A DNA stretch of 64,000 nucleotides. Source: Blastomussa wellsi (Eukaryota; Cnidaria; Anthozoa; Scleractinia; Plerogyridae). Below the pieces are notes generated by a model that did no database searches, was not told the origin of the DNA, and saw nothing but the letters and a program-made list of their open reading frames with translations. The stretch covers positions 11,209,378 through 11,273,377 of the forward strand of contig OX393569.1 in the NCBI GenBank assembly GCA_947652115.1, given 5' to 3'. Every line of letters starts with the position of its first letter. Position 1 is the stretch's first letter. Made by a program: the position numbers and the translations under genes. Positions 2,053 through 49,339 of the stretch are shown piece after piece.

Positions 2053-2070
2053 TCTAATTTCAATAACACT

Positions 2071-2601: not shown

Positions 2602-2691
2602 GGCATATTATAACATTTCAATTTATCTCTAAAATAAAACGAATTGGGAACCTGTGAAAGTCAAACAGTTCGCCATTCACGAAGGCTGCAC

Positions 2692-4009
2692 AAGACAAGG
2701 TGTGGGCAGCTTTTTCTGCAAGGTTTCTGAGGGCCAACAAAAGCAAATTTGTAGCACAGACAATTTTAGCGTTGGACCACACGGCAACAGCTGACATATT
2801 TTACAAAGAGGGTGAAGGCAGTCTGCAAAGCGTCTTCGGTTCAGACAGCAAATATTGGAGTGAAGGCATGAAAAGCGCGCTGGGTTTGGATGACGCTGGC
2901 GGCTTCCCTTACCAGTTATCGCCTAGCGCAGAAAAAAGTTCGCTGCTGGCTCCAGCAGTTGAATTTGAAGACACTGCACCAAGTTTGAAGACAATATTCA
3001 ACAACTCAATTAACATTTATGTAACGCCTGACCTTGTACCAACTCAGAGGCAGCAAAAGCTTGAGCGCATTGCCGGGTGACCCTACATTCAGTCAGATCA
3101 ACGACCATAACGACGTGGCTTCTTACAAAAGATTGTGTACAGAGTTTGGCATTGGCCCGTCAACTGACTTCCGCTTCACGTACGGGGCAAACCACGGGCT
3201 AGGAAGCGTTTACATTTATTGCCGCGACCCTTTCATACTGGACGTGCCCTATCCATCACCAAAAGCAAAATTCGACAACGAGGACCCTAAGGCATCAGGA
3301 AAAGGGAATTTCAGTATGCTTCATAAAAAACGATGCCACGGAAGAGCAATTCAATTGGTTCGCACCCAAAACCTCGGCAGGTTTGACCCAGGCAGGGCTT
3401 TCACGTATCAATCAGTCAATTGAAGCCTTTGTGTATTTCATCTTGGGCGCGCAAGTCAACGTGAGAAGCAGCATTCTTGGCGCTGGAGGCAGAGCAAAAG
3501 AAGCCCAGAGTGAGTTCCTTGTCTTGGTGGAAGACGCGATAAGGCAAACGGAACTGGCCAAGTCAGTTCAAAGATACCAACTTGCCGTAAACGAGGCAAG
3601 GGTGAGGCTCAACCTTGCTGTGTGCCCGGGGGCCTGGCTGATGCCCGCGCAGATGATAATTAACACAGAGAGCATGGTTGGCTACAACAACCAGCTCAAA
3701 CAAGCGACGCCAGGTATGAAGCTGGGTGTCAACGACGGGGTAAACAAAAGCACAAAAAAAGCAGGGCTTCGGCTAATGGATGGCGGGGACTCAAAAATAA
3801 ACCCACCAAACAGTCACCCTCCGAATCCAAGTCACAAGGCAGCAAAAAAAGAGGCAGCACCTGTGATCCAAACAGCTGCAGAAGAGCAAACGGAATCTGA
3901 ACCAACGCCAACGGCTGGCTCCGGCAGCGAGTCACATGATGTGAACAAAATAGCTGTCATTGTTGGCGTGGTTGCAGTTGCGGGTTTGGCATTCTTGTCA
4001 TTTCGTTAA
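2692..4009 (+). pseudogene. Putative virion-associated protein, truncated (copy L)
   Basis: This is homologous to the longer gene at 46639-48296 in copy R. The N-terminus is missing before about 2692. About 110 codons present in copy R are deleted near 3030. Frame changes occur near 3030 and 3390, and the last frame, 3383-4009, is open to the stop. That part contains INQSIEAFVY, then a conserved C-terminal region, a Ser/Thr/Pro-rich stretch and a final hydrophobic segment that looks like a C-terminal membrane anchor (VIVGVVAVAGLAFLSF). It converges on the coiled-coil gene at 4006, the same arrangement as in copy R. A virion role is inferred only from its place beside capsid and ATPase genes. 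Confidence 0.6.
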
Positions 4010-5264
4010 GGCCGCTTCTTGATATAGGTCTCCATTAGCAAGGCCACCACAGCCAACATCAGCAGCCAGGTGTGCTCAGCGAGAAAACCGATGGCCTGAC
4101 CAGCGGCTTTGAAGAGGAAACTCACAATTGAGCCAATGAGACCTGGCAGAGCAGTTGCAACCTTTGAGCCAATATCTTTCAGACCTTTTCCCAACGCTTT
4201 GCCAATGGTTTTCAAAGAGTTGGTGATGGCGCCAATAACAGCACCAATCGTGACACCAGCAGCAAGAAAGATTGCCGTGACTGTCACGCCATATTTTTTG
4301 AAGATCTCTTTGACCCTTTCACGAAGTGGTAGCGCTCTTTCTCTTTCCTCAATCTGCGTTTGCAACCGCGCGAGCTCCTCTGTTCTTTCCGCAACTCTTC
4401 CTTCTGCGGCTTCTTTGTCAGAGGGTGAGGCGTTCTCATTGTTGATGATTTTCTGATCTTCATCATTTTGTCGTTGAAGGTCGGATTCTTGCTCACGCAG
4501 TTCATCCAACGTTCTTCTTGTGTTAAGCCTTTTTTCCATGGTGTTTCTTTCGCTCTCTTTGGCCGCGAGGCTTGTCCTGAGTTGGTCGATCCGGGTTTGT
4601 TCTTTGGCTTTACTTTTTGCTTGTTTTTCAAGAGCAGCCACCTCTTCTTTTGCATTTTCAAAATCTGTTTTAAGATTTTTTTATCAGTTGCTGCTGTCTC
4701 CGCAGTTCTGCCTCACTTTCAACATTCAAACCATGTTCATCTTGTAACCCATCAATCCTTGCTTGATTTTGCTCAATTCTGTTTCTCAGATTTTGAGCCT
4801 CTTGTCTGGCAGAGGGTGAGGCGTTCTCATTGTTGATGATTTTCTGATCTTCATCATTTTGTCGTTGAAGGTCGGATTCTTGCTCACGCAGTTCATCCAA
4901 CGTTCTTGTTTCGTTGAGCCTTTTTGGCCGCGAGGCTTGCCCTGAGTTGGTCGATCCGGGTTTGTTCTTTGGCTTTACTTTTTGCTTGTTTTTCAAGAGC
5001 TGCCACCTCTTTTTTTGCATTTTCAAAATCTGTTTTAAGATTTTTTATCAGTTGCTGCTGTCTCTGCAGTTCTGCCTCACTTTCAACATTTAAACCATGT
5101 TCATCTTGTAACCCATCAATCCTTGCTTGAGTTTGCTCAATTCTGTTTCTCAGATTTTGAGCCTCTTGTGTAGCTTTTTCCTTTTCTGCAGCATTTTTTT
5201 CAGCATCTCTTAATTGTTGTTCGGTCTCTCTCAATCTCTGACGTTGTTCTCTTATGCTCTCGTT
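4006..5264 (-). pseudogene. Coiled-coil protein with C-terminal membrane segments (copy L)
   Basis: A long heptad-rich coiled coil (E, Q, R and K rich) leads to a C-terminal domain from about 4330 down, with two glycine-rich hydrophobic segments and a final transmembrane-like helix, ending at 4006. It is homologous to 45275-46638 in copy R. The N-terminal third is lost: the coil is joined in frame to a PolB N-terminal fragment upstream. The coil contains a ~0.39-kb partial tandem duplication (4420-4810 repeated at 4812-5200) and frameshifts near 4670 and 4900, so it is not functional as it stands. The architecture resembles a virion or membrane-remodelling structural protein, but no function is known. 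Confidence 0.65.
4421..5200. repeat. ~391-bp tandem duplication inside the coiled-coil gene
   Basis: The sequence beginning 'gagggtgaggcgttctcatt' occurs at 4421 and again at 4812. The flanking coil-coding sequence follows in both copies with small indels. The duplication is confined to copy L; copy R has one unit. Confidence 0.75.
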
Positions 5265-6596
5265 GGCTTGAGCAATACCGTAAACACCCGCAGATAAGCC
5301 GCACCCTGAATTTAGCAACTTAAATTTTGGAAAAACAAGTTTTTTGAAAGAAATCAAACGAAATCCAAGGTCAAGTCTTGAGACATCTTCATCAAACGTA
5401 AATGCATCATAACATTGAAACGGAAAATACTTTGAAGTCTTACCAACAACCAATGCCTCAAAGTCCACGTATATCACGTATGGCACCTTTATCTTTATCT
5501 TTTGGAAAGAAAGGGTGTTTTTCCCCTCTTCCTGCATCTCGATCCTTGTCAGCCCGCCATTCACGCCGTTGCAGTATTTTTTGTGGTTCTCGAGCAACTC
5601 CGCTCGTGTGAAACGTGATAAGCACATCATGCAATAGAAAGTTTTATTATTAATTGCCTTGTCAAACAGCAAAGCGCTCACCCATTTTACACAACAATAG
5701 TGCTGTATTTCCCCCGACTCTATTAGCATCAGGCTTATCCGCGGCACATTCGCTTCTTTTCTGCTTATCCTGTGTACTATCAGGCAGTTGTTTTCCCAGC
5801 CGAAGACATTTATTGCGAGGCCTTTGTTTTGCGCCTCAAGCTTGTCTATCTGCTTTACCGGTGTTGGGAAATCGATGCCATTGTAGCTGATACCATCGTT
5901 AACCGGATATTTGCTTGGTCTTTGTGGGTTCTTTCCATCTTTTGGAGGGAATAAAGCAGCTCTTAGTGCCCACTTCAAACATTCGTTATCCCTGTTTTGC
6001 ACGTTGACTATGGCCTTCTTTTTTGCCAGATTGGCCGGAAGAGGCAAATAAGTTCCTCCGCGCAGTGGTTGATAGCGTGCGACATTCACAAACGCAGTCT
6101 TTATCATTTCAACTTCCCATTCTGATCCCTCCACAGACCAGTTTTCTATTTCTCCCTTTGTTCTTTCAATGAATTCATCGAATTTTTGTTTTATCAGTTC
6201 TTCATCGTCCTTGTTAAAAACATGCAGTTCTTTTTCTTTAAAATAATGTTTCATGTGTTGCGTTTCATCGTTTCTTTCTATTGAAAACTTTACTTCTAAC
6301 CCAAAACTTGCTTTCACGCTTTTTAACTTTTGGAGTTCTTGTTCAACCAAATCAGTAAACCTTGCTTTATTTTCTCTTGCAAACACTAATAAACCTTTGT
6401 TGTTTGGATTTCCTTCGGATACATCCATTCTCCAAACACGAATCCATTCCCGGAAATTATTTTGTGATAATAGAAACCTGTCATATAATACAACCAGTTG
6501 TGGTTGTAATGGTTGACGTAGGTTTCTGTTTTCCTGCCTCGTTATTGGACCATAAAACATTTGCAAAACAGCGGATGTATAATTTGCGGCAGCCAT
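5265..6596 (-). pseudogene. PolB N-terminal fragment of the virus-like element (copy L)
   Basis: An ORF starts at the ATG at 6596 and encodes about 385 residues resembling the N-terminal region of a viral protein-primed family B DNA polymerase: a conserved block with NRDNECLKWAL, a CxxC...HxxxxC zinc finger (CMMCLSRFTRAELLENHKKYC), and the first exonuclease motif as YVDFEAL. The polymerase palm motifs are absent. After the exonuclease motif the frame runs through about 50 unassigned residues and then into the coiled coil of the neighbouring gene at 5264, as expected from a deletion that fused two genes. It is one continuous frame down to 4893. It cannot be an active polymerase. Confidence 0.7.
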
Positions 6597-19642: not shown

Positions 19643-19980
19643 AGTAGTAAGAGCCTATGCTTTGACAACGGACCAATCAGAATCGAGTATTTTTTGAATG
19701 GACCAATCAGGAGGCCTTATATCAAACACGTGACTTTTCTAAACCGAAAATGACGTCAGCAAAAACGTCACAAGCCAATGAACCAATCAGGAGACATGAA
19801 TTCAAATGACTTTAATGGTCACACAATACATGTCACACAAGTGGTAACACAAATACATGTCACGCAAAAACCTGGTAACGAGTTCAATAACGAGTTCAAT
19901 GTCACGCAAAAAACCTGGTAACGAGTTCAATGTCACGCAATGTCAATTCTTCTTCTTGATGAATTTGAATGGTACATTTT
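19643..19980 (+). repeat. Polinton left terminal inverted repeat
   Basis: The first ~185 bp match the right end with one difference seen. Contains three ATTGG/CCAAT motifs, a CRE-like TGACGTCA, and 'acatgtcacgcaa' subrepeats. The inner edge (about 19935-19980) is an inverted copy of the 3' coding end of the gene at 41600-42505. Confidence 0.9.
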
Positions 19981-20370: not shown

Positions 20371-23300
20371 TTAAAAAAACAATAAACTTTGCAAATTGAG
20401 TTCATCTTGTTCATCCCATTCGAATTCACCGTAATAGCCATATGGGTAAGAGTGAAATGTGATGGGATCCACTACTCGTTTGTCAAAAACGATTTGGTAA
20501 CGTTTTATTTCGGACATTGTTTCTAAATGTTTGGTTTTATTGTCTCTTGTGATCTTGAATGGATTGAAGACGGGAATCTGCCGTTGTTTTTCCTCCAAAG
20601 GTTTTGTCACTTCATCCATGACATTTTCTTTTAGGATTTCAAAGTTTAACTGTTCTTGTCCGCGTGTGTTCAGCGAGAAGCCACGCACCTTACATTCTAC
20701 TTTTCCCTTCATGGTTCGGTACCCGTAATTCTTGGGTCCTGCAGCAGCGAATTCTACAATGTGATCATCCGGGTCTTTCAATTCGTCTGTGTATTCTCCC
20801 AGGAAATCACCCAATGGTAAACTGGGTTCATTTCCTTTGTGGGAATAAATGATGGAGTCAGTGTCAAAGTACAAAGTCTGTAGAGGATTCAGTTTTGAGA
20901 GACCTTCTTGATACAATCGTAGTCTTGCCCAGCAAGTGGTGAAGCAAGCCACGAAAATGTTTATGTTCACTTGAATGGGGTCACACTCGCTTTGATACTT
21001 GTTTACGACTTCGATCATTTCCTCATTTACGATGCGGATGTCGTTTATTTCCTTGCTGTCGTCTTCCAACAACTTGTGGAATAGGGCCGGACTGGTGTAC
21101 GTTTGAACTTGAGTCTTGTTGCTTTGTTGCCCGTACTTTCCCCAGAAAGAGTTTAGCATCATTTTGGCTAGAGATCGTTTTCCCGGATTTTCTTTTATCT
21201 TGTCGGGTTCTAATTTGATTCCTTCCTTTTTCTCATAGTCCGTGATGTATTTCACGCGTTTGTCGGTGTCGTTCCCTATCCGTTTTGGCCACCCGCTGGC
21301 TTCTTGCTTTATTTTCAGGAAAGTGTTCACGTACGATTTGAACAACGTGTCGGACGTGTTTTGAAAATGCCAAACTTCGTGCACGTGTTGGATCACGTAA
21401 CCTTGACGCACTGCTTCTTCCAATTCGGGGGTGCACCAAGTACCGGTTAGTTCCCTTTCTTTGAGCGTGTGACTGCAACTTGCGCTGCGTTCTGTTAAGG
21501 GTTTGGATTGTTCTGTTTCTACGCAGGTGCGGCATAACGGGAAGGTCAGTTTTCCGCCGCTGCGGTAGGGTAAGACGGCGTGGTATAACCCGTAGGGTGG
21601 TGACACAGTGCATTTGGCAAGCCCGAAAAACTCGGATAGATCTGTGTGCCCTGGTTCTAGCAAGATGACGGGATGTCCTATGGGGTAAATGCAGTTTTTG
21701 TTGACGTAGGGATAGAGTGACGTGAAATCCACGTAATGGATCTTTTCACCCTCTTGCGTCTTGTGATGAAGTTTGACCGCATTGGTTCTACCCCCGAAAA
21801 AGGCATCTCTGGGTTCTAGTCGTTCCGTCAAGTTTAAAGATTTCAGGTAGGTTTGAATGTCCGTGTCTCGTTTTTTGAGATTGTTCCATTGACATTCCCA
21901 GATTTCCATTAGATTGTAACCTGCGTGTCTGATCTGATCGGCTCTACGTTGCGTGGTCTCGTGCACGTCGTACATGGTACGTTCATCCAGTTTGGTGTGT
22001 TTCTGGTATCGGTTTGGAAAACAAGTTCGGCAACCGTGATAGAAGCAACCGTAGAATTCGTACACGGTATTGGTGGACGCCGCGTACCCGTCTACGTGCA
22101 CTCGTCTGTTACCCACACGGATCACGTGTTCTCCACCGTTTCTGGCATGCGTCACACGGTCTGTCGATGTGGCATTGCGGTTCAAGTAATGTAACCATTC
22201 GATGGAAGCCTGGGAGTGAGGTTTTCCTTTTCCGTGCCAACCTCGCACTGGTTCCGAAGCCAAACAGTTATGGGGCATGCATGTTGTGCCATAGTACAGG
22301 TTGCAAGCCGAGGCAATGGTCAAACATTTTTCCATGGGATCAAATCCGGCCACTTGTTTGAATTGTTGTCGAAACACCTTACATCCGTCGTGTAACAATT
22401 TCACATCCGATTGGCAATAGGCCAACAGTTCCGCCTGGAAATCAAACAGGGAATTCTCCTCTTTCATTTTTTTGTGCCATTCGTCAAATTCTGTTTTTCT
22501 TTCTGGTTTCATACCTCCCGGGTCGTAATAATCGCGTGCCGGAATGGGACCCACGTACGATTGGTTGTCTGGAATATTGAAGAAATGAGGGAAAAACCCT
22601 TTTTTCTGTTCTGTCAGTCCAAATGCTTTTGGGAAGGCAGAAAGCGGCATCTGAAGAAAACACATCGAGTCCTTGAATTCAATGTCGTGAACTTTCATCG
22701 ACAAAATCTTGCTTCCGTTTACCAATTGATTGATTGACGGTATAGTTCGTTCAAAATGAAGTAGGAATCGTACCCTTTAAAATTGTGAGCAATGGCAATG
22801 ACTTTATTGTCGATGGCTATTTCTCGTAACCAGTCGAGAAAGTCTGTCACACATGTCGAACCCTCGAACTTGTGTTGCAAGTTACTGTTCGAGGTCATGG
22901 TGCAAATCAAATTGGGTACGTGAATTTCTCTTTCTTGCATGGCTTCGGCATCCCAAGTCACAAAAATGGGAGGTTCTTCTGGCTGAGTGTCGTCCGCTTT
23001 TCTCTTTCTCTTTTTTCTTTTTTCTTCCATTTCGTTTGGGTTCTGAATGAAACATGTGTGTTGATACAAGTTCAAGTATCGTTTGCAGGAAGGACATTCG
23101 CTGTGGCCGCACACGTGTTTACCCATTTCGATTTCGTAATGGGTCAGTGTCTTGCTACAATTCTTACATTTCTTATGCATGTGACAAACACTGTTCTTGG
23201 TGTTTTTTTCCACTTTTTTCCCGCTTTCTTCTTGTTGTTTCTTGTGCAGAGCAAAACACGCGTCTCCGAAGAACGAGCGATCACAATCGTTGCAAGGAAC

Positions 23301-24321
23301 CATGGCTTTGGTACCTTTGTCGACTTTGGTGAAATCTGGGCAATTCAATTGATGACAGGCATGACATCGTTTTCCTTTACATCTGTGATTTCTCCATTTG
23401 TCATGCTCGAAGGATTTTTCGCACGCTAGACAGAAATGGGCTTTGCCAAAGAATCCTTTCAGCGAGTTGCACGCATGGTAATGTTCTCCCACTTTGATCA
23501 AGACAAGGAGTTTATCTTCGGGTTGGTCCGGCCCTTTGAAAATGAATTGGTAACCATGATCCACGGAAACCACCACGATCTGGTACTCTTTCAGGTAAGT
23601 CTGAAATTGTTGAATTTCAGTCAAGCCGCAGGGTCCTTCGTGTACTTTGGCCGAGGCGTGTAATTCTTTGGCTTGTCGTTCTTGTATGAATTTGCCCATG
23701 TGTAAACTCTTCTAAGTGCTATGTCTGCTGCCTAGATCGCGGTAAGCTTTGATGGTGACCAAAGCTCTGGCACAACACAGTTCGTCCGTTTTTGATTTTG
23801 ATCACTGACTTTTTGTCGTTTAAGAGTTTCTCAATGTGCTCCGTTCCCAGTTTTTTTCGTCCGCTTCCCGTCCCGGTGGCTTTTATGTGAGAAATGTTCA
23901 AGTTAAACGTATCATCCATTCTGAAATTTTCGTTGGAGTTCAACAGTCTGCTTAATTCTTCCAAAACGGTGCGAGCAATCAATGCATTGTTTCTCCAATC
24001 ACGCACTCGCACTCGTCTTGAATGATAAGCGTTTCTTAGTCTGTTCGAGTTGATGTTGATCAGCAAATGATCGTCGGGTCGTACTTCCGAGTCTTCTAAT
24101 ATTTGTTCGTTGATGCTGCGTTGCAAGGCTTCCTCGATTTGTCCCGGCAAGACGGCTCTGTCCAAGTTGACCAATGCACCACCGCGCTGTGCCAATCGCG
24201 CCGTGTAACTTCTGTGATGTAAATCAAATCGTCTCAATCATCTGTCCACGTGTGGAGTCAAAATGAAATCAAATCCGCGTTCCCATTCACTTGCCGCCTC
24301 GATCATGGTGTCATCATCAAT
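20371..24321 (-). pseudogene. Protein-primed family B DNA polymerase, broken
   Basis: The replicative polymerase of the element. The 784-codon part (20371-22725) holds motif A DFTSLYPYVN, motif B KMMLNSFWGKYG and motif C YFDTDSI, plus a terminal-protein-region-type insertion between A and B. The 326-codon part (22719-23699) holds Cys/His clusters and exonuclease motif TWDAEAM. An N-terminal part lies at 23719-24237. Breaks: in-frame TGA at 24240-24238, frameshift near 23770, TAG near 23709, frameshift near 22725 in a short CAAT repeat. The frame upstream of the first stop opens at 24321, directly after a CAG acceptor-like site, suggesting translation from a spliced leader. Probably once about 1,300 residues; not functional now. 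Confidence 0.9.
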
Positions 24322-24616
24322 CTGCAATCATGTCAAGACAACAATAATTGTGATGCCAATCTGATTGACTGGGATTGACATGACACATGGTTGGTATTCG
24401 CCATGTGTTGTCTATGAATGTGGGGTTTCCTCGTATGTCTCCATTTTTACAAAGCCTGTGTCTCATTTCCAGAAAAAAATTGCAACGTCGACAATAACTG
24501 AAAGTGTTCAATGTTTTTGACCACGTTTTCTTTTTCTCTTTTACGTGCATGAGATCTGCCTGCCATTGAATGTATCTTTTCAATTCTTGCGGTAATGCAT
24601 CCCAGCGACTCTTTAT
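24317..24616 (-). CDS. F-box-like/zinc-binding unit 5 (candidate alternative terminal exon)
   Basis: Intact frame of 99 residues beginning right after an acceptor-like TTGCAG, without needing its own ATG. It has an F-box-like helix (W-D-A-L-P-Q-E-L-K...IQW), a CxxC (CRRC), the shared MRHR segment, and a C-terminal H-x5-C-C pair. The stop overlaps the next acceptor (24323-24322) that leads into PolB. It is paralogous to units 1-4. F-box proteins recruit targets to SCF ubiquitin ligases; that role is inferred, since only the short N-terminal motif resembles an F-box. Confidence 0.6.
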   Translation of the reverse strand: MKSRWDALPQELKRYIQWQADLMHVKEKKKTWSKTLNTFSYCRRCNFFLEMRHRLCKNGDIRGNPTFIDNTWRIPTMCHVNPSQSDWHHNYCCLDMIAD

Positions 24617-24966
24617 CTGCAATCAAGACACGTGTGTTCAAAGGGAGGTCTCATTATTGATAAAAAAAGGAAACCCTCATCCGTATATCCATGCCAATAT
24701 TCCCATTGATCTATATACGGATGATTGAATGTCTGATGAGCTATCCTACACATGACAGGATATACATCCTCTTGTTTAAAGTTCCCTGACGGTTCTATTC
24801 TGTCTCTCGTGTTCACGAAGTGACCTCAAAGTCGACAAGGAGATAATCGTAAGTGAAACTTGTACCAAAATCTATGGTTGTATTTGAGTTTGTCTTCCAC
24901 ATGCGATTTGTCCGAAAGCCATTGAATTTTTCGTTTCATTTCTTCTGGCAGAAAATTCCAATGACT
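24613..24966 (-). pseudogene. F-box-like/zinc-binding unit 4 with in-frame TGA
   Basis: Starts after acceptor TTTTCACAG in phase 0 with S-H-W-N-F-L-P-E-E. One TGA at 24828-24826 falls where the paralogues have the second Cys of the CxxC zinc motif; the frame continues beyond it to 24613. Its last codons overlap the acceptor of unit 5. A nonsense mutation (Cys codon to TGA) is the simplest reading. Confidence 0.6.
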
Positions 24967-25252
24967 CTGTGAAAAGACCAATTCTGTCAACGTAAAATGC
25001 AGATACATATCTTCCCTCCGTTGTGTAATAGTGCCAAGGTAAACGCGATTTTAACCATAGATATGACGGAGGTTTTTCCATTGAATCATAGTATATGAAA
25101 CTATGACAATAAATACAAGGGTCCAAGGAATTGAACAAAGCGGACCAATAAGGTAAATGGTGAATGATGTTGATCATGATTTGATCAGCTTGTCGCTGTA
25201 TGATTCGTTTCAGTTCGTCTGGTAATCGATCCCATGGGTTGACTCCCATTCC
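24872..25252 (-). CDS. F-box-like/zinc-binding unit 3 (candidate alternative terminal exon)
   Basis: Opens in phase 0 after acceptor TTCTATTCGCAG at 25253. Contains W-D-R-L-P-D-E-L-K-R-I-I-Q and a CxxC (CIYC). The C-terminal H/C pair of the other units is not obvious, which may reflect a frameshift near 25010. The frame reads on through the unit 4 acceptor to a stop at 24872. Confidence 0.5.
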   Translation of the reverse strand, partial: GMGVNPWDRLPDELKRIIQRQADQIMINIIHHLPYWSALFNSLDPCIYCHSFIYYDSMEKPPSYLWLKSRLPWHYYTTEGRYVSAFYVDRIGLFTESLEFSARRNETKNSMAFGQIACGRQTQIQP

Positions 25253-25652
25253 CTGCGAATAGAAATGTGATAGGGTATAATGCAATCTAGGTGTATCCAT
25301 AATCCTCCGTCGTAAAATGTTACGCGTTCTCCCACGGTCACGGTACGAATGTATTGTTTCCACGACTTTATTTTTTCCCCACTCTGTTCAATCATGCGAG
25401 AAGGTAAACGATCAATCTCCCAAATGTAACTTTTTTGAAATACGAATCTGTTCTTCTTGAAATTTCCTTCTTCATCGATGCGATGTCTCATGTCTATGAA
25501 GAATCCGCAATGACAACATTGATCCAATACAACTTTCAAGTTGAACCAATATTTAAAATTGCGATAGCGTTTTGTCTCAATCATCAAACGATCCGCTTTC
25601 CATTGTATCTTTTGTTGTATTTCTACGGAAGAATGTCCCAATGACTGATTAT
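25210..25652 (-). pseudogene. F-box-like/zinc-binding unit 2 with frameshift
   Basis: After acceptor ATGGCAG the phase-0 frame reads I-I-S-H-W-D-I-L-P and stops at 25623. The rest of the unit (V-E-I-Q-Q-K-I-Q-W..., CxxC as CCHC, MRHRI, C-terminal W-I-H-L-D-C) continues in the neighbouring frame to 25210. The pattern indicates one missing base near 25625. An ATG-like start (MADNQ) in the second frame spans the acceptor and could be fortuitous. Confidence 0.55.
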
Positions 25653-25665
25653 CTGCCATGAAATT

Positions 25666-26340
25666 TCAAACAAGAAAATGAACAACCAATTTGCCTTCAT
25701 CGCAAAACGGTAACTTTTTGATTTCATCGTACTTTTCATCTCTGGGATAAAAGAAGAAGTGACGAAAGTCATCGCATGCCTTTTCCGGATCGAAATGTGT
25801 TGCACACAGGCAACAATGTCCATGTTTGTCAGGGTGATCATGCATTATACATTCTTGATGAAACCAACGTTCATCCGTTTTCATGAAAGGAATTCGATCC
25901 GAAGCACCATACAATGTTCCTTGATTTACAATTTGTCCCGTTTCATTTGTTTTTTCTTCGTAACGAGAGAGGAATAAATCGCAACTTTCGCAAGGATCCA
26001 AGAATAAATGTATTAATTCCCAAGTTCCAAATTCTGTTTTGCTCTTGTCTAACATGACAGTTTTCATGCATGTGTAGTGTTGAAAGGCGAAAGTCACAGG
26101 CAGATGGAGATAATGATTATCTTCATTTACTTCTAGCTTCTTAATCTCGTAAGGAGTGTTCAATCGTTCCCGTACATGCATTTCTACACTTGCCCATTGT
26201 ATCTTTTCTTTGATTTCTTCTGGCAATACATCCCAATGACTTCTTACCTCTTCTTCTGCTTCTTTTTCTTCTCCAAGAAACTCCCATTGCATTGGCCCTT
26301 TCTTCCTCCATAACTTCTCTCTCTCATCGTTGCTTGCCAT
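25666..26340 (-). CDS. F-box-like/zinc-binding protein, unit 1 with leader exon
   Basis: Intact 224-residue ORF from the ATG at 26340, just downstream of a TATA-containing promoter. The first 31 codons are charged and then meet GAG|GTAAGA, a near-perfect splice donor at 26247. If unspliced, the frame continues directly into S-H-W-D-V-L-P-E-E-I-K, an F-box-like helix, a CxxC (CESC), and a C-terminal H-x3-C...CxxC zinc-binding region. It is the largest of five paralogous units. The stop at 25668-25666 lies in the pyrimidine tract of the unit 2 acceptor. Possible role: redirecting host ubiquitin ligases, inferred only from F-box resemblance. Confidence 0.7.
   Translation of the reverse strand: MASNDEREKLWRKKGPMQWEFLGEEKEAEEEVRSHWDVLPEEIKEKIQWASVEMHVRERLNTPYEIKKLEVNEDNHYLHLPVTFAFQHYTCMKTVMLDKSKTEFGTWELIHLFLDPCESCDLFLSRYEEKTNETGQIVNQGTLYGASDRIPFMKTDERWFHQECIMHDHPDKHGHCCLCATHFDPEKACDDFRHFFFYPRDEKYDEIKKLPFCDEGKLVVHFLV
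26248..26340 (-). other. Candidate shared leader exon with consensus donor
   Basis: 93 nt (31 codons, phase 0 end) from the ATG at 26340 to GAG|GTAAGA. Five downstream acceptors, with exon starts 25652, 25252, 24966, 24616 and 24321, are all in phase 0 relative to it, and each opens a paralogous unit or PolB. Confidence 0.6.
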
Positions 26341-26344: not shown

Positions 26345-26520
26345 TGTCAAACTTGAGAATGAAGCAAACGCTGCAAGTGAGTTCCTTATATAGGCCATGA
26401 GCTGGTTCCTGATTGGTTGATGAAAAGGGGGATACCCCCCATCCCCATACAATTGCTATCACGTGACCTGTTTTGAATGTATATAAGGCTTTCCATCCCA
26501 CACTGCCAGTTACCCTTTGA
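26345..26520. promoter_or_regulatory. Bidirectional promoter module 1
   Basis: Lies between divergent genes starting at 26340 (-) and 26523 (+). TATA-like sequences face both ways: 'cttatatagg' near 26387-26395 read leftward and 'gtatataagg' near 26480 read rightward. Between them are a CCAAT box (gattggttgatgaaaa), a run 'ggggatacccccc', and an E-box cacgtg. A close copy lies at 41425-41590. Confidence 0.7.
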
Positions 26521-26522
26521 AG

Positions 26523-27632: not shown

Positions 27633-27671
27633 AATAAAACAATGTTGTTTGAAAAAAAGTCTGATTTTATT
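27633..27671. terminator. Convergent polyadenylation signals
   Basis: AATAAA on the + strand at 27633-27638 follows the rightward cluster. AATAAA on the - strand (complement of tttatt, 27666-27671) overlaps the stop of the exonuclease-like gene. Confidence 0.6.
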
Positions 27672-28188
27672 CTGCGTAAGTGTTCATCCATAACCAAAAA
27701 GCATGACATTCGACCATGCTGCAATGAGTGTTACAACAATTGAAATGAAATCCGCAATCGGGCAAAGGCTCGACAACACTCGATTTTAGTATTTCGTATT
27801 TAGGACAATTATACACTTCAAGGTTTAAACTTTGAATGTTAAGTCTATTCAACAAATCTTTTTCCACATGTCCTCCTTTGTAGGCTGTTACATATCTTTC
27901 ATTGCATTTGTTGTTCTGATACAAATTCATCAATATCTCTTCCAACTGGTGAGACTCGTATCCTCTTTCTTGTTTTATTGGGTCGTACGTCAGTCCGTGA
28001 TTGTTATACTTTTGAAAGGCAACAGTTCTTTTGTCTTCTATGGATAAATTGTGCCAAGGTACTTTTGCGTAAAATGCATATCGTCCGTGATCTCCTGTCC
28101 AAGCGTAATATCCCAGTTCTCGCACTTGAAATTTCTTGTTGACGAAAAATCCCTCCAAGTCCAATATCATACACACTTTCTCTTTCAT
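27667..28188 (-). CDS. DEDD-type exonuclease-like protein
   Basis: Intact 173 residues. An N-terminal ILDLEGFFV strand provides a D-x-E pair, a middle YKGGHVEKDLLNRL segment and a C-terminal Cys/His/Glu-rich end fit the layout of small DEDD-fold nuclease-like proteins seen repeatedly in metazoan Polintons and related viruses. The nuclease activity is inferred from motif spacing only. It overlaps the upstream GRF gene by 4 nt (28185-28188), implying co-expression. Confidence 0.55.
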   Translation of the reverse strand: MKEKVCMILDLEGFFVNKKFQVRELGYYAWTGDHGRYAFYAKVPWHNLSIEDKRTVAFQKYNNHGLTYDPIKQERGYESHQLEEILMNLYQNNKCNERYVTAYKGGHVEKDLLNRLNIQSLNLEVYNCPKYEILKSSVVEPLPDCGFHFNCCNTHCSMVECHAFWLWMNTYAE

Positions 28189-29182
28189 TCTGTCAGTCCA
28201 TGCTTCTTCATCAGACGTTTGATGTAAATCTGATTCTTTAACGCAGGTTCATTCTCTTCGGTATAGTGACATCCCCTTATTTCTGGAGGACTTATCACCT
28301 CTTGATTATGTTCCAAAAACGTGATGTTTACTTTTTGACACTCCAACCACAACGATTGGTCAAAAGGAATGGAATTGATATCTGTGTAGGTGGGTTTGTG
28401 ATACCAAGGAGAATCTTGTCCTCTCAGTGGGTAACCTTGTTCATCTCTGGACCAATGGATGTTGCCATGATGACGTTTTCCTCCTTCTATCCAAGCCAAG
28501 ACTTTTCCTCTCGGTAGCAAATCAGCCCATTGAAAGAATTTGCACATGTTTCGTCTGCAGCGGAAGTAAGGGCGATCTGGATTCTTCGGCGAATAAGAGA
28601 TACTGAGAATGATTGGTTCGTCACAGTAACACAACAATTTATCCAGGTTGTTTGAGTAGTAAGTCATCACAGTGTTCGTATTTCGAACGATGTCGATATA
28701 CGTTTTGGCTTCGTTTTTGTCCACCAAGACAAAACAATGATCTTTACGATCATCTCTTCCCACACCGCAAACCAGGTACTTCCATCCATTGCTTGCTGTT
28801 TTTTCTTGAAGTGCAACATTGTTGTGAATCGGACAATTCACTTCTGCTTGTGGAAAGAACTTGTTGAAAAAATCAATGGCTTCATCGTACGACGGTATTT
28901 CACCCTCTTCCATCACTTCCACGAGTTCTTTGTTTGTCTTTTTCTTCTTCTTCTTCTTGTTGGAAGCCGGTGGGTAATCTTTAGGCAACATGTAACGTGT
29001 GGGAGATTCGTCTCCTTTCTTCTTATTTTTACCGCGGTTTGACTTTTTTTTTTAGTCAAAATTGGCGATGCATCACCGGGTTGATAATGAATATAGTTAC
29101 CTTGTTCACTTTGCAAAAACTTTATTTGGTCTGTCAGTTCTTCTTCTTCTTTCTTGATCTCCGACATCTCTGCTTCCTCCAT
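28185..29182 (-). pseudogene. GRF-type zinc-finger protein, frame broken at a homopolymer
   Basis: The main frame 28185-28991 (268 residues) carries a GRF zinc finger: CYCDEP...NPDRPYFRCRRNMCKFFQW. GRF fingers bind single-stranded nucleic acid in nucleases, topoisomerases and helicases. An acidic coiled N-terminal piece (ATG at 29182, MEEAEMSEIKKEEEE) lies upstream in another frame. The frames meet at a run of ten A (minus strand) at about 29048-29057, so this may be an assembly error, slippage or real decay. If the break is real, the ATG at 28991 could still start the zinc-finger part. Confidence 0.65.
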
Positions 29183-30838: not shown

Positions 30839-31871
30839 GGGAATTTTATCTGAGACTCACCAGTCGATCGAACCGCGTGGAATTCCCCGACAATCAATCC
30901 AATCACTTCAAGAATCGTTTGCCTTACCCGTTGCGTTTCAAGGAATGAGGATGGAAAGTGGGTTGACCAGTATTCACGTACCAAAAGCACCACCTCATGT
31001 CCTAATCAAGGATCCCTTCTTGTTTCGGTTCGAATGGGACTTGTTGGAAGATGAGGACAACGAAGTTTATACAGAACAACGACTCCTCATCACTGAAGAT
31101 GTGTTGAACAAGTTCAATTCCAACATCACAAACGGCATGCAATTTATGACAGCCATAAAGAGATTGTACTATTGGAAACTAGAAGACATCGGTATTGCTG
31201 ATGCTCAATTGGGACAAGATGTGACAGAAGGTCAAGACGATGATGGTAACGACATCGTGAAATTCAAGAGGTTTTACACGCAAATGTATGCTGACAAAGA
31301 CCAATTCGTATTGGATAATATCGACATGTATTTCGGAGGCAACTCGAACAATTACCCAAAAGTGTTCGTGGGATATCAATTGGCCAAAGACATGGGATGG
31401 GTCAAAGAAGAAACAGATAGTGATGGTGATCCCGTTTACGAATTGGGAGACAATTTACGCAAAGAATTTCCCACAGATAAGGTGCCAGGCGCTACTGACA
31501 TTATAGAAGGAAACGACGAATTTTACAAAATCGACAAAGACGCAATTCAGTTGAGTTCTTTTTGCAATTGGGTGTTTTCGTACTTGGACCAAAGTTACGA
31601 ACGGGCATTCGGTCATCAGCAAAGACCTCTATTCGTTCACTCGACTGTCGTCCAGAGCAGCACGGTGGGAGTGCAGATCACTAATTTGTTGAGAGACATT
31701 CCCTACACGTTGTCTCAAAGTGGATACGAGATGCAAAACGTGCAATATATACCGGTGCGAGACGAAGTCATTGACATTATCGAAATCGACGTGATAGAGG
31801 AAGACGGAAGAGAAGTACACTTCGAAGAAGGAAGTACGATCGTGACATTACATTTCAAGTATGACGACTGA
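30835..31871 (+). pseudogene. Penton-like capsid protein A, broken
   Basis: The ATG at 30835 overlaps the integrase stop. The first 35 codons (REFYLRL...) match the N-terminus of the next gene. A TGA near 30947 and a frame change within the next 20 bp precede the long open part (to 31871). The C-terminal region has a jelly-roll-like penton pattern: LFVHSTVVQSSTVG, then YIPVRD, and the closing strand TIVTLHFKY. Paralogous to penton-like B. Expected at the capsid vertices. Confidence 0.7.
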
Positions 31872-32995
31872 AGAGTTCTACTTGACGTTACCCAATGACA
31901 GCAGTCGCAAAGAATTTCCAAACAATACAAACAACAGTTTCAAAGTGCGATTACCAACTCCCATTCGATTGGGTGAAGGATGGAAAGTGGGATTGAGTAG
32001 TATATCGTTGCCTGACAACCAACTAGCTATTCCTTCTGTCACGGATGATCCAAATACCATCCTGTTCAAGTATGAATGGTTTCATGGCGAGAATGACAAT
32101 CACTACTACACAAGCCGATTGAACATCAGCGATTTGAACAATGTATTCTCCAGACTGAATGGTGTGGAATTCATGAAAAGCGTGGTGAATTTCTATGATC
32201 AAAAAAGATACAAAACCGGTGGCAATGGCGCTCCGGTTTACAATCCAGAATGGGGAGCTTCTTTCAACAGTCCAATAGACAAAGGACGAACATTTGTCAA
32301 ATTCAAATGGGATGGTGACCAATTGATCGTAAAAAACATGGGAACCACGAAAAAACATCATGGCGTGACATTCAAAGTCAACGCTACACTGGCCAAGAAA
32401 ATGGGATGGTAAGCGTGTGCTTCCGCTTTTTAAACCTTTCCATCCTTCCGACGCACTTTCTTTGACGAGATCGGTGAAGAATCCACTCCCGTCTTGATCG
32501 GAAGACAAGATTCCTACTTATCCTGTTGATGTTGTCCGTTGGGATGTTTTCACAAATTACATCCCTGCACCCGGTGAACCAGACACCAGAGACATGAGAT
32601 TCTGGGTTGTGAAGGACGACATAGAAGACATACGCGATGTATCTAAAAGAAACGATGGCAGGTTTCTTTTTTTGTCTGTTCATTGCAATTGGCGATTCGT
32701 CAATTTGAACAAGGCGTATCAAAATGTGGCAGGAACGTCAATGAGATCGCTGTTTGTCTACTCGGATGTGGCGCAGAGTTCCGTGGTGGGAAATCAAGTG
32801 ACAGATCTGTTGCGTGAAGTCAACTACGAAAGAAGAGGAGAAGGTAACGCATACTTCGAACCGCTTCACATTCAATATATTCCCGTGCGCAAGGAAGAGT
32901 TGGACATTATCGAAACGCAAGTGGCTGAGACAAACGGACCTTTGGCAACGTTGGGTGAAGGCACGACCATCGTCACGTTACATTTCAAACGATAA
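31861..32995 (+). pseudogene. Penton-like capsid protein B, broken by an inverted duplication
   Basis: The ATG at 31861 overlaps the end of gene A by 11 nt. The frame 31861-32412 and the frame from 32501 to 32995 are two parts of one penton-like protein (ending VTLHFKR, with LFVYSDVAQSSVVG). They are separated by a 94-bp segment that is an inverted copy of 33027-33120 in the next gene, which also shifts the frame. The duplicate genes A and B might have formed distinct vertex proteins. Confidence 0.75.
32407..32500 (-). repeat. 94-bp inverted duplication, inserted copy
   Basis: Complement of 33027-33120 with a single mismatch (position 32425 region). It interrupts penton-like B. The source copy is in frame in the following gene, so this is the derived copy. 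Confidence 0.95.
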
Positions 32996-33236: not shown

Positions 33237-33473
33237 ATGAATCCAATCTACTCGAGACGCGTGAAAAGGATAAGAAAAATACATCAACGCGGTGGTACCA
33301 TCATTCCTTCACCATTGGACATGATGATTCGGTTTGGAAGGAGACAACGCGGCGGTCAAATTTTTCCCACTAGAACTCGCTTACCGTGGAAAGACATGGT
33401 GGAACAGTTTACAAAGTCTAGGCTTATAAAAAGGCAACAACGGGGTAGACGCCGAAGAAGAAGAAGAAGATGA
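33237..33473 (+). CDS. Arginine-rich core protein with two QRGG sites
   Basis: 78 residues ending in a run of arginines, likely DNA-condensing like the small core proteins of adenoviruses. HQRGGT and RQRGGQ resemble adenain-type GG cleavage sites. The ATGA overlap at 33470-33473 couples it to the major capsid gene. Confidence 0.65.
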   Translation: MNPIYSRRVKRIRKIHQRGGTIIPSPLDMMIRFGRRQRGGQIFPTRTRLPWKDMVEQFTKSRLIKRQQRGRRRRRRRR

Positions 33474-34855
33474 CAGATCTTGTCCCATTGACCGGTTCGG
33501 CCGGAGTGAAAAATCCTGCGTTGGATCTCTTCCGAGTACCTCCGACAGATGTCAGCATCTCCAGTAAACGCTACGTTCCTGTTCAGACGTTCACCACAGG
33601 CATCAACCCCATTGAATTTCAGATCGACCCTCAAGAGGATTACATCGATTTGAGTCGCAGTTACTTCGAATTGGAATTGAGTCTAAAGAAAGCCAATGGA
33701 GAAAATTTGGTGGCTGCCGAAAACATGTTCCCAGCCAATAACTTTGCCCACACTCTGTTCAAGCAGATCAACATGAAACTCAATTCAACTTTGATCAGTC
33801 CTCAGACCGACACGTATCATTACAAGGCTTACTTAGAAACCTTGTTGAATTATGACAGAGATGACGGAGAAACGATCTTGAAACCCCAAGGGTGGTACAA
33901 TGCCATTGATTGTGCTGCTACCCTGACGGCCAACAACCTGGACAGCGGTACACCCCATGCCAATTACAATACTCTGTCTGCCACCCAGAAAGAAGCAGTG
34001 CTAGCCATGAAAGCCGAACTGACCAAATATGCAGGAGGTAAAACACACGTGTTACGCTTCACACCTAACATCGAAATATTTCACATGAGCAAAGCATTGG
34101 TGCCGGGAGTGCAAATGCAGATCCAGTTGTATTTCAATTCTCCTACGGTGTTCATGAACGGAGTAGGTGTGAATGTACGACTCAACAGCGATGATGTCAA
34201 AGTGAGACTGTACCTTTGTCAAATGAGACTCAATCCATCCGTGTACCTGGAATTGGAGCAAAAACAAAGACAGACCAGGAGACCAGTGACTTACCCCACA
34301 GTACGAGGAGAAATAAGGACCTTCAACGTGCAAGCAGGTCAGCAACACTATGAATGCATCAATCTGTTCCAGAACAGGGTGCCCAATCGACTCATCGTGG
34401 GAATGGTATTGTCAACTGCATTCACTGGCACCTACGCAAATAATCCATTCAGTTTTCAAAAGTTTGCATTGAGTAACATCCGTCAATTGGTGAGAGGAGA
34501 AGAATATCCCTACGAGACCTTGGAATTGATTCACAACGATAGCACCCGCGATTTGAGAGGTTACTTCAGATTTCTACAAGCCACAGGATGTCTATGCAAA
34601 CAGAAAGGAAATATGGTGAGGGAAGCAGAATGGGGACAGGGCAAAAACTGCACGTTGTTTGTATTTGATAACACGGCCAACGGATGTTTGGACAGTCCAG
34701 TGTTGAATCCCAAGCAGAGCGGTGATGTACAAGTGATCCTGAATTTCGGAACCCCACTCGCAAACAACATCACCATCATTCTCTACGGAGAATTTGAGGA
34801 ACTGTTGGAGATCGACGACAACAAAGCAGTATTGTACAACGTGTATCAACGTTGA
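33470..34855 (+). CDS. Major capsid protein (double jelly-roll, hexon-like), intact
   Basis: 461 residues, no break. It matches the major capsid family of metazoan Polintons/adintoviruses: N-terminal extension with the TTGINPIEFQI strand, PANNFAHTLFKQI, a long first jelly roll, RPVTYPTVRGEIRTFNVQAG between domains, and a second roll with NDSTRDLRGYFRFLQATG. Forms the trimeric hexon-like capsomers. Starts in an ATGA overlap with the core protein and ends in a TTGATG junction with the protease. Intact while neighbours are broken. Confidence 0.9.
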   Translation: MTDLVPLTGSAGVKNPALDLFRVPPTDVSISSKRYVPVQTFTTGINPIEFQIDPQEDYIDLSRSYFELELSLKKANGENLVAAENMFPANNFAHTLFKQINMKLNSTLISPQTDTYHYKAYLETLLNYDRDDGETILKPQGWYNAIDCAATLTANNLDSGTPHANYNTLSATQKEAVLAMKAELTKYAGGKTHVLRFTPNIEIFHMSKALVPGVQMQIQLYFNSPTVFMNGVGVNVRLNSDDVKVRLYLCQMRLNPSVYLELEQKQRQTRRPVTYPTVRGEIRTFNVQAGQQHYECINLFQNRVPNRLIVGMVLSTAFTGTYANNPFSFQKFALSNIRQLVRGEEYPYETLELIHNDSTRDLRGYFRFLQATGCLCKQKGNMVREAEWGQGKNCTLFVFDNTANGCLDSPVLNPKQSGDVQVILNFGTPLANNITIILYGEFEELLEIDDNKAVLYNVYQR

Positions 34856-40620: not shown

Positions 40621-41405
40621 CTAAAAAACAACAAACGAAAATCATCACCACCACATATGATCCGAACTATAATGATACCAACTCATGTTACTACAAAAAA
40701 AAAACGCAGCACTCTCCAACAAATAATAATTCAAATGAAAACACACGGTGCGAATAAACCCATAACGATGAATAAATCGCGGATGAAAAATATAAAAAGT
40801 AAAAAACCTACGTAAAATTTCCTCGATGTACAGTTCATCCGTCACATCCAACTCGTGGTACGAGTACACCTCGCCTCTGATCACAACACGGTGGTGACGG
40901 TTGATCAAATGTCTGTTGTTAACTATCTGTTCAGCGATCTCCAGCAACTTTAAACCAAATATCCTCGTCAAATGGATGAGGTATCTGCAAACAAAATACA
41001 AAAAACATTCAATCCCACTACTCTTTGCGCTCGCCCACAACAACAACAAATACTCACCATGGTGTACGACACAGTTCCAGGTGCATGGAACGAACGATAA
41101 AGTCGCTCCCGACGATAAAGTTCAATGCGTCGCAGGGCCATCTCCGCATGTTCCTCAGGGTCTTCAGGCGATTCGTCAGACGCAAAAAGAATTGGTTTAC
41201 GGCAATGTCCACAAGCCACGCGAGGACGAGCACTAAATTTCTTATGACATCTCTTGTGTAGAAATTTGCCGCAACACTCCAACGCCGTGCAATTCAACAA
41301 CGAACCGACATCGAGGGGCAACAAACAAATAAAGCAACAGTCACTATAAAGCTCTTTCTCCAGTCCAAGTCCTGCCAATCGTCGACTCCTTCTAGGCAAC
41401 GCCAT
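39872..41405 (-). pseudogene. RING-like gene with introns and tandem candidate terminal exons
   Basis: Exon 1 (41405-41058) starts MALPRRSRR and has a RING-like Cys/His array: CCFIC, a central CC with H-x3-C, and CGHC near the end. Candidate intron 1 is 41057-40985 (GTGAGT ... TTTGCAG). Exon 2 (40984-40812) ends at a donor GTAGGT. Four acceptors downstream (exon starts 40620, 40443, 40253, 40053) open frames that all fit this donor in phase 1, each with its own stop; a fifth unit at 39859 has decayed. Exon 1 and exon 2 frames do not join cleanly; a one-base disruption near 40935-40965 is likely, so I class it as broken. RING proteins act as ubiquitin ligases; here inferred. Confidence 0.6.
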
Positions 41406-41409: not shown

Positions 41410-41599
41410 AACAAACCAACAAAGTCAGGTCTCCACTTATATAGGCTAGGAGCTGGTTCCTGATTGGTCAATGAAAAAGGGGGGATACCCCCCACCCCAC
41501 CCTCAGTCACCCTCCACGTGACAAAATACGTCATCACAATAACTATATAAAGAACGCAAGCAGAGGGGATACATCAACTCAAAGCAAGCAGAGAGAAAC
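41410..41599. promoter_or_regulatory. Bidirectional promoter module 2
   Basis: Close copy of module 1 at 26345-26520: 'cttatatagg', 'gagctggttcctgattggt', 'atgaaaaaggggggatacccccc', an E-box cacgtg, then a rightward 'ctatataaag' at 41543. Serves the RING-like gene leftward and the 41600 gene rightward. Confidence 0.75.
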
Positions 41600-42505: not shown

Positions 42506-42956
42506 CATTGCGTGACATTGAACTCGTTACTCGTTATTGAACTCGTTACTCGTTACCAGGTTTTTTTCGTAACTCGTTATCACTTGCGTGACATGTATTG
42601 CGTGACCACTTGCGTGACATGTATAGAGTGACCACGTGCGTGACATGTATTGTGTGACCACTTGCATGACATGTATTGCGTGACCACTTGCGTGACAAGA
42701 AATTGCGTGACTCGTTACCAGTTATTGAACTCGTTATCGAACTCGTTACCAGCTTTTTTTGCGTGACATGTATTGTGTGACCATTAAAGTCATTTGAATT
42801 CATGTCTCCTGATTGGTTCATTGGCTTGTGACGTTTTTGCTGACGTCATTTTCGGTTTAGAAAAGTCACGTGTTTGATATACGGCCTCCTGATTGGTCCA
42901 TTCAAAAAATACTCGATTCTGATTGGTCCGTTGTCAAAGCATAGGCTCTTACTACT
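42468..42956 (-). repeat. Polinton right terminal inverted repeat
   Basis: Partner of 19643-19980, longer because of an internal array of ~37-bp units (about 42560-42715) built from 'gcgtgacatgtattgcgtgaccactt' variants. It begins inside the last codons of the 41600 gene. Confidence 0.9.
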
Positions 42957-45274: not shown

Positions 45275-46638
45275 ATGGCGGAAGGTGGACACTTTGGATT
45301 AGACGACCCTCAACTTGACCATGCTATTGACCACAATGACGATGACCATGATGATGAACAAGAGGTCAATACAACTCAGCCTGTCTCTGCATTGACACCC
45401 CACCATGGTGGTGAAGAAATTGAACTGGTAACAATGCAGCACGAACAGAGCGGGCTGCCTGACGAATCCTATGTTGAAGCACCTTTGTTGGACGATATTT
45501 TGGACAAACGAACAATTCTTGAAAGAGCTAGATACTTTATCAAAAAGAGTTTCCCAAAGGTGGACTTTGGAAAATTAGGTCCAATAGGTTTTAGCAAAAA
45601 GGGTGGCAATGAGACAACAGTTGTATCATTTGGTCCACAAGGTGGTGAGACTGAAATTTTCAGAAAAGATGGTGGTGGTCTTCTCAAAAAATTCACAGAC
45701 AAGTTCAAAAAAGCTCTTGGGCCAGAAGCTGAATCTCTACTTGCTCCAGACAATTATAGCATAAGAGAACAACGCCAGATATTGAGAGAGGCCGAACAAC
45801 AATTAAGAGATGCTGAAAAAATCTCTGCAGAAAAGCAAAAAACTGAACAAGAGGCTCAAAATCTGAGAAACAGAATTGAGCAAACTCAAGCAAGAATTGA
45901 TGCAATTCATGATGAACATGGCTCAAATGTTGAAAGTGGGGCAAAACTTCGTGAACTTAAGCAAATGAAAAAAATCTTCAAACTGATCTTGAAAACGTAA
46001 AGAAAGAGTTGGCTTCACTCGAAAAACGTGCAAAAAATATAACAAAAGAACAAGAAAATGTTGATAAAATCAGATCAGGCATTCTTTCCACAGAAAAAGA
46101 AAGAAACGCTCTTCAACAAAATCTTAACGACACGAGAGCGCTTTCACAACTGCGTGAGCAAGAAACCGACCTTCAATGACAAAATGATGAAGATCAGAAA
46201 ATAATCAACGATGAGAACGCCTCACCCTCTGACAAAGAAGCTGCGGAAGAAAGAGTTGCAGAAAGAACCGAGGAGCTTTCGCGTCTGCAAACGCAGATTG
46301 AGGAAAGAGAAAGAGTGCTTCCACTTCGTGAGAGGGTCAAAGAGATCTTCAAAAAATACGGCGTGACAGTTACATCAGTCCTTCTTGCTGCTGGTGTCAC
46401 GACTGGTGCTGTCATTGGTGTCATTAACAACTCGCTGAAAGCCACCGGCAAAGGGTTGGGAAATGGCTTGAAAGAGATTGGTAAAAAACTTGCTTCAATT
46501 CTTCCCGGGTTAATTGGCTCGATTGTTTCTTTCCTATTCAAAGCTGCTGGCCAGGTCATCTCTTTTCTGGCAGAGAATACCTGGCTTCTGATTCTGGCTG
46601 TTGTGGCGTTTCTGGTCGAGACCTATGCAAAGAAGTAG
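45275..46638 (+). pseudogene. Coiled-coil protein with C-terminal membrane segments (copy R)
   Basis: Starts MAEGGHFGLDD; acidic N-terminus, a conserved FKKALGPEAESLLAPDN-type segment, a long coiled coil, then glycine-rich hydrophobic segments and a final transmembrane-like helix. Frames: 45275-46000, then shifted, with an in-frame TGA near 46177, and the last frame 46315-46638. Homologous to 4006-5264 in copy L but with a complete N-terminus and no internal duplication. Convergent with the gene ending at 46639 (zero gap). Confidence 0.7.
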
Positions 46639-48296: not shown

Positions 48297-48344
48297 CTTA
48301 TTCCCCGTTATTTTTCAATTGCAAATTTGCGTGCAACAAAATAA

Positions 48345-49006: not shown

Positions 49007-49021
49007 AAAAATAAAATCTGT

Positions 49022-49227: not shown

Positions 49228-49339
49228 AAAAAAAAATGACGTCCAGCACAAATTTGAACTAAACTTTGAGACAAAAAAAAACAAAAATCTCTCTCTGTTT
49301 TAAAAAGTAGACAACGCGTGACGTTGCGTGACTGGTCAC

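Follow-up and report, generated by a model that had tools for sequence, protein, structure and literature searches.

A leader exon and tandem units in a coral Polinton

We analyzed a 64,000-nt stretch of the genome of the coral Blastomussa wellsi (OX393569.1:11,209,378-11,273,377, hereafter the window); our genome-wide scans covered the 367.8-Mb assembly. The window holds a Polinton at 19643-42956, which is bounded by inverted repeats. On the minus strand of this element, a short exon with an ATG (the leader) is followed by a tandem array of related units (u1 to u5) and then by the gene for a B-type DNA polymerase (PolB). The placement of candidate splice sites suggests that the leader is joined to alternative downstream exons. 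The features of the region are listed below, with splice-site scores in bits and with open reading frames abbreviated as ORFs.

26385..26440, minus strand: promoter module (CCAAT plus TATATAAG), 52 nt ahead of the leader ATG
26248..26340, minus strand: predicted leader exon, 31 codons from the ATG (26340), with a GAA-rich end
26242..26250, minus strand: candidate splice donor GAG/GTAAGA, last exon base 26248
25666..26247, minus strand: unit u1, the leader ORF continuing through the donor; 224-amino-acid ORF overall
25210..25652, minus strand: unit u2, candidate acceptor ahead of 25652; 149-amino-acid ORF in another frame
24872..25252, minus strand: unit u3, 126 codons open; candidate acceptor ahead of 25252, 8.5 bits
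24975..24985, minus strand: junction at which part of the array is missing (about 0.5-1 kb between u3 and u4, present in all nine sister copies)
24618..24966, minus strand: unit u4, candidate acceptor ahead of 24966, 8.0 bits; in-frame stop at 24826-24828
24317..24616, minus strand: unit u5, 99 codons; candidate acceptor ahead of 24616, 6.6 bits
24238..24321, minus strand: N-terminal PolB exon piece after the candidate acceptor at 24321 (4.0 bits); in-frame stop at 24238-24240
20371..24237, minus strand: the rest of a broken PolB (pieces 23719-24237, 22719-23699, and 20371-22725)

Splice sites were scored with a generic, vertebrate-like matrix that was not fitted to the coral host, so ranks count for more than bits. 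The predicted leader donor scores 10.1 bits, a level that just 0.25% of the 7472 GT sites in the window attain, and it stands exactly where the homology among the units begins (0.002 donors this strong are expected by chance in a 12-nt bracket). Units u2 to u5 are homologous to the portion of u1 beyond this donor. At the DNA level, u1 and u4 are 81% identical and u1 and u2 are 79% identical over 48 nt, and protein comparisons among the units reach E-values of 1e-11. The DNA homology starts 0 nt (u4), 6 nt (u1, u2, and u5), or 12 nt (u3) past the junction.

An earlier note on this DNA, made from the letters alone, had placed the donor at 26248, at the start of the first of five diverged domain copies, and had given starts for the later units and for PolB (24321). 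These positions and phases hold. It had also put all five acceptors in phase 0 with the leader donor. An AG in phase 0 is indeed found ahead of each of 25652, 25252, 24966, 24616, and 24321, but in the window the phase-0 frame of u2 shuts after nine codons (its longer ORF is out of that frame), and u4 has an internal stop. The acceptors of u3, u4, and u5 are strong (8.5, 8.0, and 6.6 bits), and those of u2 (2.1 bits) and PolB (4.0 bits) are weak. The u5 frame has a stop two codons ahead of its acceptor, and its first ATG comes only after 22 codons.

With a reach of 15 nt, a chance test of the four unit acceptors gave P = 1, as the u3 site, 18 nt before its conserved W, fell outside. When the reach was widened post hoc to 18 or 24 nt, P ranged from below 2e-6 to 1.3e-4, depending on the null. 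If the CAG[AG] is taken as given, the probability that three of four unit acceptors reach 6.5 bits is 0.001-0.019.

The unit proteins share a W-[DN]-x-L-P start and, by eye, Cys/His pairs. The earlier note had called them F-box-like, a label that Pfam does not support: the five unit pieces matched no family at E ≤ 1, and neither PF00646 nor PF12937 was found. Neither u1 (E ≤ 0.01) nor a profile of the units (E ≤ 1) matched any of 5.8 billion proteins, and the best result of a profile search of PDB (E = 0.9) was not an F-box protein. AlphaFold models of u5 and u1 reached, at best, mean pLDDT (predicted local distance difference test) scores of 58 and 48, with one long N-terminal helix.

Sister copies and a diverged subfamily

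We located a 26-nt pattern from the leader at 10 sites in the genome, including the window, and took 4.8 kb from each of the nine others (the sister copies; with the window, family A). Over the first 1.5 kb, eight of these are 88-97% identical to the window, and the ninth matches in pieces of 91-98%. Given this closeness, conservation among the sister copies alone would not prove selection; in this comparison of sequences, the weight is carried by the unlike units within each array and by a diverged subfamily.

In nine of the 10 copies, TATATAAG sits at -52 or -48 (exact CCAATCAGGAACCAG in six), and the leader donor is unchanged in nine, L028 being without it. Within 3 kb, the leader donor is the sole donor of at least 7 bits in six copies; three copies have one or two more, and L028 has none. 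For this reason, we rejected the idea that the units are cassette exons of one long protein. The ratio of nonsynonymous to synonymous changes (dN/dS) is 0.22 for the leader (eight copies), which points to constraint. We also note that TATATAAG occurs on both strands, at 26480 (+) and 26392 (-), which gives the appearance of a divergent promoter between the leader and a gene that begins near 26522 on the plus strand.

Each sister copy has four to six recognized downstream units, for a total of 54 with the window. Unit count and order vary among L028-L036, as by unequal exchange or deletion inside the array. In 48 of the 54 units, the best AG of any phase in the 30 nt before the domain is in phase 0 (u2, 5/9; u3, 14/15; u3b, 7/7; u4, 8/9; u5a, 6/6; u5b, 8/8). 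From a phase-0 AG, 43 of the 54 stay open for at least 90 codons. We compared the genomic phase of these 43 units and of seven PolB frames with the leader ATG: phases 0, 1, and 2 occur 14, 12, and 24 times, so these reading frames do not simply run on from the leader. In one sister copy, u1, the six units downstream of it, and PolB (as far as the stretch taken extends) are all open, and four of these six units lack an ATG in the part of the exon ahead of the domain.

The missing start codons bear on the idea that there is no splicing and that leaky scanning or reinitiation allows the tandem ORFs to be translated on one polycistronic mRNA. Stops and starts do lie close together in this element (for example, ATGA at 28185-28188, outside the array), the u2 ORF of the window begins 6 nt past the u1 stop, and in u3 and u3b an ATG is often present close to where the exon begins. 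Yet in 28 of the 43 open units, the frame contains no ATG from the preceding stop to the conserved domain (u4, 7/7; u5a, 6/6; u5b, 7/8; u2, 3/3; u3, 4/13; u3b, 1/6). Also, the 13 codons ahead of the conserved W include an in-frame stop in 5/7 u2 and 6/8 u4 units of the sister copies and in 10/13 u5-type units (including the window's). We consider a polycistronic message very improbable.

More distant relatives came from a protein search with u1, which covered 150 of 281 first-look candidates and gave at least 98 matches in the genome. Among the matches listed, at least 31 cover u1 residues 3-224 or more at 83-100% identity. Seven others (loci L076-L082, subfamily B) match only inside residues 6-80, at 36-42%, so that the leader and the unit start are found together. 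The subfamily B leader has 20 codons, versus 31 in family A, and the two subfamilies share 19-21 of 50-53 residues and 100-107 of 154-156 nt. All seven loci have a candidate donor (GAG/GTAACT or GAG/GTAAAT) in phase 0, at the homologous place, right before V-[TN]-S-Y. Upstream, TATATAAAG is present in five of the seven; L077 is without it, and the stretch examined for L081 lies elsewhere. For downstream units, we counted L076-L080 together with L083, a 63% relative of family A. Of their 15 units, 14 have a phase-0 AG 12 nt before the domain; this is the best AG in 13, and it scores at least 6 bits in 10.

Because the sister copies and subfamily B share this layout, we rejected a coincidence specific to the window. 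The layout also bears on the view that the CAGs are leftovers of duplicated coding sequence, in a decaying gene family without splicing. Such a view could draw on the descent of all copies from one family, the decay of the window copy, the closeness of the sister copies, and the resemblance of the u5 and PolB acceptors (in the 37 nt preceding the CAGs, this pair has 18 positions alike, versus 7-15 in the nine other pairs). But the acceptor scores are above chance even with CAG[AG] taken as given, the best AG falls in phase 0 in 48 of 54 units, and the diverged subfamily keeps the donor and acceptors despite a different leader length. Decay alone is, in our judgment, improbable.

The local leader of both subfamilies, with its ATG and phase-0 donor, likewise argues against a spliced leader supplied to the units in trans from elsewhere. 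Acceptors without an ATG would suit such a leader, but spliced-leader trans-splicing is not known from anthozoans, and we rate it as extremely unlikely.

Several observations weigh against splicing of the leader to the units. The u2 acceptor scores below 5 bits in eight of nine copies, and the best AG is out of phase 0 in four of nine (L031, L032, L034, and the window). For two of these, L032 and L034, a translation-based scan does find a phase-0 AG 12 nt ahead of the u2 domain; some of the misses arise because the domain was projected across an indel. The strongest acceptor of the region (25741, minus strand, 11.8 bits in the window) lies inside u1 and is out of phase, is kept at 9.7-11.8 bits in nine of the 10 copies (those having that stretch), and would give a stop after one codon if joined to the leader. 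The units are only modestly constrained (dN/dS 0.42-1.05), and codon-position tests among copies showed no third-position excess; only u1 gave a significant result, with more changes at first rather than third positions. Amino-acid changes in a 16-codon block gave P = 0.02 (u5 alone, P = 0.13; a weak test). The leader distances of the 50 open frames run to phase-0 AGs only and are multiples of three by construction, which leaves 48 of 54 as the unbiased figure. Of the 15 units in L076-L080 and L083, just seven have 90 or more open codons, and no downstream unit is recognizable in L081 or L082. All relatives used for the array comparison come from one genome. (L081 and L082 lie on one contig, are identical at 199 of 200 nt at the leader, and both have a stop directly behind the donor.)

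A second copy of the promoter module, at 41436-41491, is 84% identical to that at 26385-26440 over 56 nt and stands above another gene:

40968..41405, minus strand: sister gene, RING-like by eye, under the second promoter copy, with a predicted 73-nt intron at 40985-41057

Pfam gave no match for this gene. The predicted intron has a donor of 10.1 bits (ATG/GTGAGT) and an acceptor of 8.6 bits. Among the nine places at which the gene would be expected in other copies, it is present at two (L042 and L037). Both keep the intron's GT and AG (CAG has become TAG in L042), and length differences are confined to the intron, save for a single-base gap in exon 2 of L042. A clear intron in a gene under the same promoter makes it plausible that genes under this promoter are spliced in general.

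The start of the polymerase gene

PolB has 2806 homologues at E ≤ 1e-10. A PolB piece is 65-68% identical to proteins of Oculina patagonica and 57% identical to one of Porites lutea (best match, 72%), and comparison with relatives reveals further damage in the window, namely a stop near 23714 and two frame shifts. In family A, the predicted PolB exon begins with IDDDTM after the CAG, and this start appears to be constrained (dN/dS 0.23, seven copies).

How PolB is expressed is harder to judge than for the units, and several results count against a start by way of the leader. In all 10 family-A copies, the acceptor scores just 3.8-4.0 bits, and an ATG (24306 in the window) follows 15 nt into the exon. 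We could locate PolB in four subfamily B loci. In L080, Q/IEDDDEIFFHPS is in frame after a long pyrimidine tract and a CAG (4.5 bits), with the first ATG only at codon 22. L078 shares this CAG and the acidic codons, but its later match is in another frame; L079 has an ATG ahead of the acidic block; and the start in L076 is unrecognizable. So of the four loci, one favors a spliced start, one does so in its letters only, one opposes it, and one is unreadable, and we view this evidence as mixed. More distant PolB relatives carry their own Met before the acidic block.

These results raise a narrower possibility: the leader would be spliced to the units, and PolB would be expressed separately, from its own ATG at 24306, by an array-internal promoter or some other route. 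The weak acceptor, the ATG 15 nt behind it in all family-A copies, the ATG of L079, and the Met of the distant relatives are in its favor. But we found no TATA[AT]A[AG]G near PolB, the window has an in-frame stop two codons ahead of the PolB acceptor, and the acidic block of L080 is in phase with the AG and ahead of any ATG. We think separate expression of PolB rather unlikely, and we think it probable that the leader is joined to the acceptor at the start of PolB as well.

A proposed shared coding leader for an expandable exon array

One promoter, one donor, and several in-phase acceptors, the signs of a shared leader, are found in the sequence for the units; for PolB, the signs are mixed. 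The earlier note had one leader feeding both, and what we found agrees with it well for the units and weakly for PolB. Acceptors and phase are kept in the nine sister copies and in subfamily B and the units have diverged, in the comparison that it had called for; the pattern it had set against its own reading, in which each unit has its own ATG and the CAGs are not conserved, does not appear, since 28 of the 43 intact units lack such an ATG. It had spoken of alternative last exons. That the exons are alternatives stands, but the array has few AATAAA motifs, and these are not placed behind each unit, which is why we prefer alternative 3' splice sites on nested transcripts.

That the unit exons receive the leader by splicing is, in our view, very likely. 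In the mechanism we propose, this would be an early-type transcription unit in which a single TATA promoter starts a transcript whose first exon is the ATG and 31 codons. In the unspliced transcript, the ORF would continue into u1. The single strong donor would compete with this retention and would be joined in phase 0 to any one of the unit acceptors, and probably also to that of PolB. This would yield nested mRNAs, each translated solely in the ORF adjoining the leader, with expression and frame secured by the shared leader and the phase-0 acceptors. This amounts to an expandable exon cassette in the Polintons of this host, which we regard as likely: an ATG-bearing leader would be combined with any of four to six tandem, fast-diverging exons or with the polymerase, and the early-protein repertoire would shift by exon duplication and loss. 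We infer that the splices occur, that PolB is made via the leader, and that the unit proteins face fast-changing host targets; proteins that are made early and change fast likely meet host factors.

Other systems join a common part to one of several alternatives. In adenoviruses, the tripartite leader of the major late unit is one leader with many acceptors, and it is non-coding, unlike the predicted coding, in-frame leader of the Polinton. Polyomavirus T antigens and clustered protocadherins also splice a shared part to one of several alternatives, but protocadherin variable exons have their own promoters and T antigens have no expanding array of homologous exons. In adenoviruses, the initiator ATG of both pTP and Pol comes from one short exon upstream.

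The closest likeness is to adenovirus E2. According to the accessible parts of PMC9499273 and PMC7851563, E2 is one reverse-strand unit that is alternatively spliced to DBP, pTP, and Pol. The Polinton, too, has a reverse-strand unit with predicted alternative splicing to a replication protein, the polymerase. It differs in its leader of 20-31 codons and in the tandem homologous exons, variable in copy number, that stand before PolB. Strong sequence evidence points to E2-like shared-leader splicing with an expandable exon array. With adintoviruses and Polintons, this element has PolB and inverted termini in common, together with a candidate rve-type integrase and weak matches to an adenovirus-type protease. 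In the portions of PMC11071296, PMC12220804, and PMC3671162 available to us, neither a shared coding leader nor an alternative exon array is described for them. Titles and abstract openings of the Polinton literature gave no such design either, with most subscription papers lying outside that search.

If this is correct, animal Polintons use adenovirus-style splicing from a shared coding leader, so that gene expression, and not gene content alone, would tie them to adenoviruses. This would also explain how the early genes of such elements can escape annotation that relies on ATGs, and it would offer a virus-like element a simple way to enlarge a fast-changing protein family without new promoters. 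Because at least 31 near-complete u1 matches lie in one genome, RNA sequencing can test this directly.

The Polinton and its surroundings

Two features mark the element as a Polinton: terminal inverted repeats with a short target duplication, and a viral/organellar-type B DNA polymerase (PF03175, E = 1.7e-33 for the last PolB piece). The repeats are as follows:

19643..19840, no strand: left terminal inverted repeat, 198 nt, with two mismatches to 42759-42956; flank ctaaat
42759..42956, no strand: right terminal inverted repeat; flank ttaaat

The flanks are alike at five of six positions and are likely a 6-bp target duplication. An rve integrase (PF00665) scores 31.8 bits, under the curated cut-off of 32.6, and its reading frame looks broken. 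An adenovirus-type protease (PF00770, 20.0 versus 21.3) and a packaging ATPase (PF04665, 20.9 versus 22.8) are also below their cut-offs. The 461-amino-acid ORF at 33470-34855, which we looked at as a candidate double jelly-roll major capsid protein, matched no Pfam family. In its accessible text, PMC11071296 defines Adintoviridae by an OTU-like PolB N-terminus, a hexon recognizable by BLASTp, and an rve with a chromodomain. The window copy is decayed: PolB is broken, u4 has an internal stop, the phase-0 frame of u2 is closed, and part of the array is missing.

Scans of viral contigs with PolB, u1, the PolB alignment, and the 461-amino-acid ORF gave no relative. A scan of genome contigs gave 10 PolB-bearing contigs in bacterial bins (L001-L010, 31-46% identity), which are probably eukaryotic or viral contamination of metagenome bins.

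Elsewhere in the element, a GRF zinc ribbon gene (PF06839; 28185-28991, minus strand) overlaps the ORF at 27667-28188 (minus strand) by ATGA, and its N-terminal part has an apparent frame break at an A-run. We dropped a spliced leader for the gene at 28185-29182, as its ORFs resemble one gene that is frame-broken at this A-run. Two tandem ORFs are related (31738-31808 and 32868-32938, 70% identity over 71 nt); that they are minor-capsid-like is a guess from position. The second holds a 95-nt inverted repeat (32407-32501/33026-33120, 99%). Around the element, inverted repeats of several kilobases (313-5275 and 45741-50013, 80-93%) flank a 40-kb spacer that holds the Polinton. Further along the window, there is a reading frame for a host-type selenocysteine elongation factor (eEFSec; 53835-55133, plus strand), and a true F-box match (PF00646) stands beside a hAT transposase-like ORF (58749-59486 and 59629-61179, plus strand).

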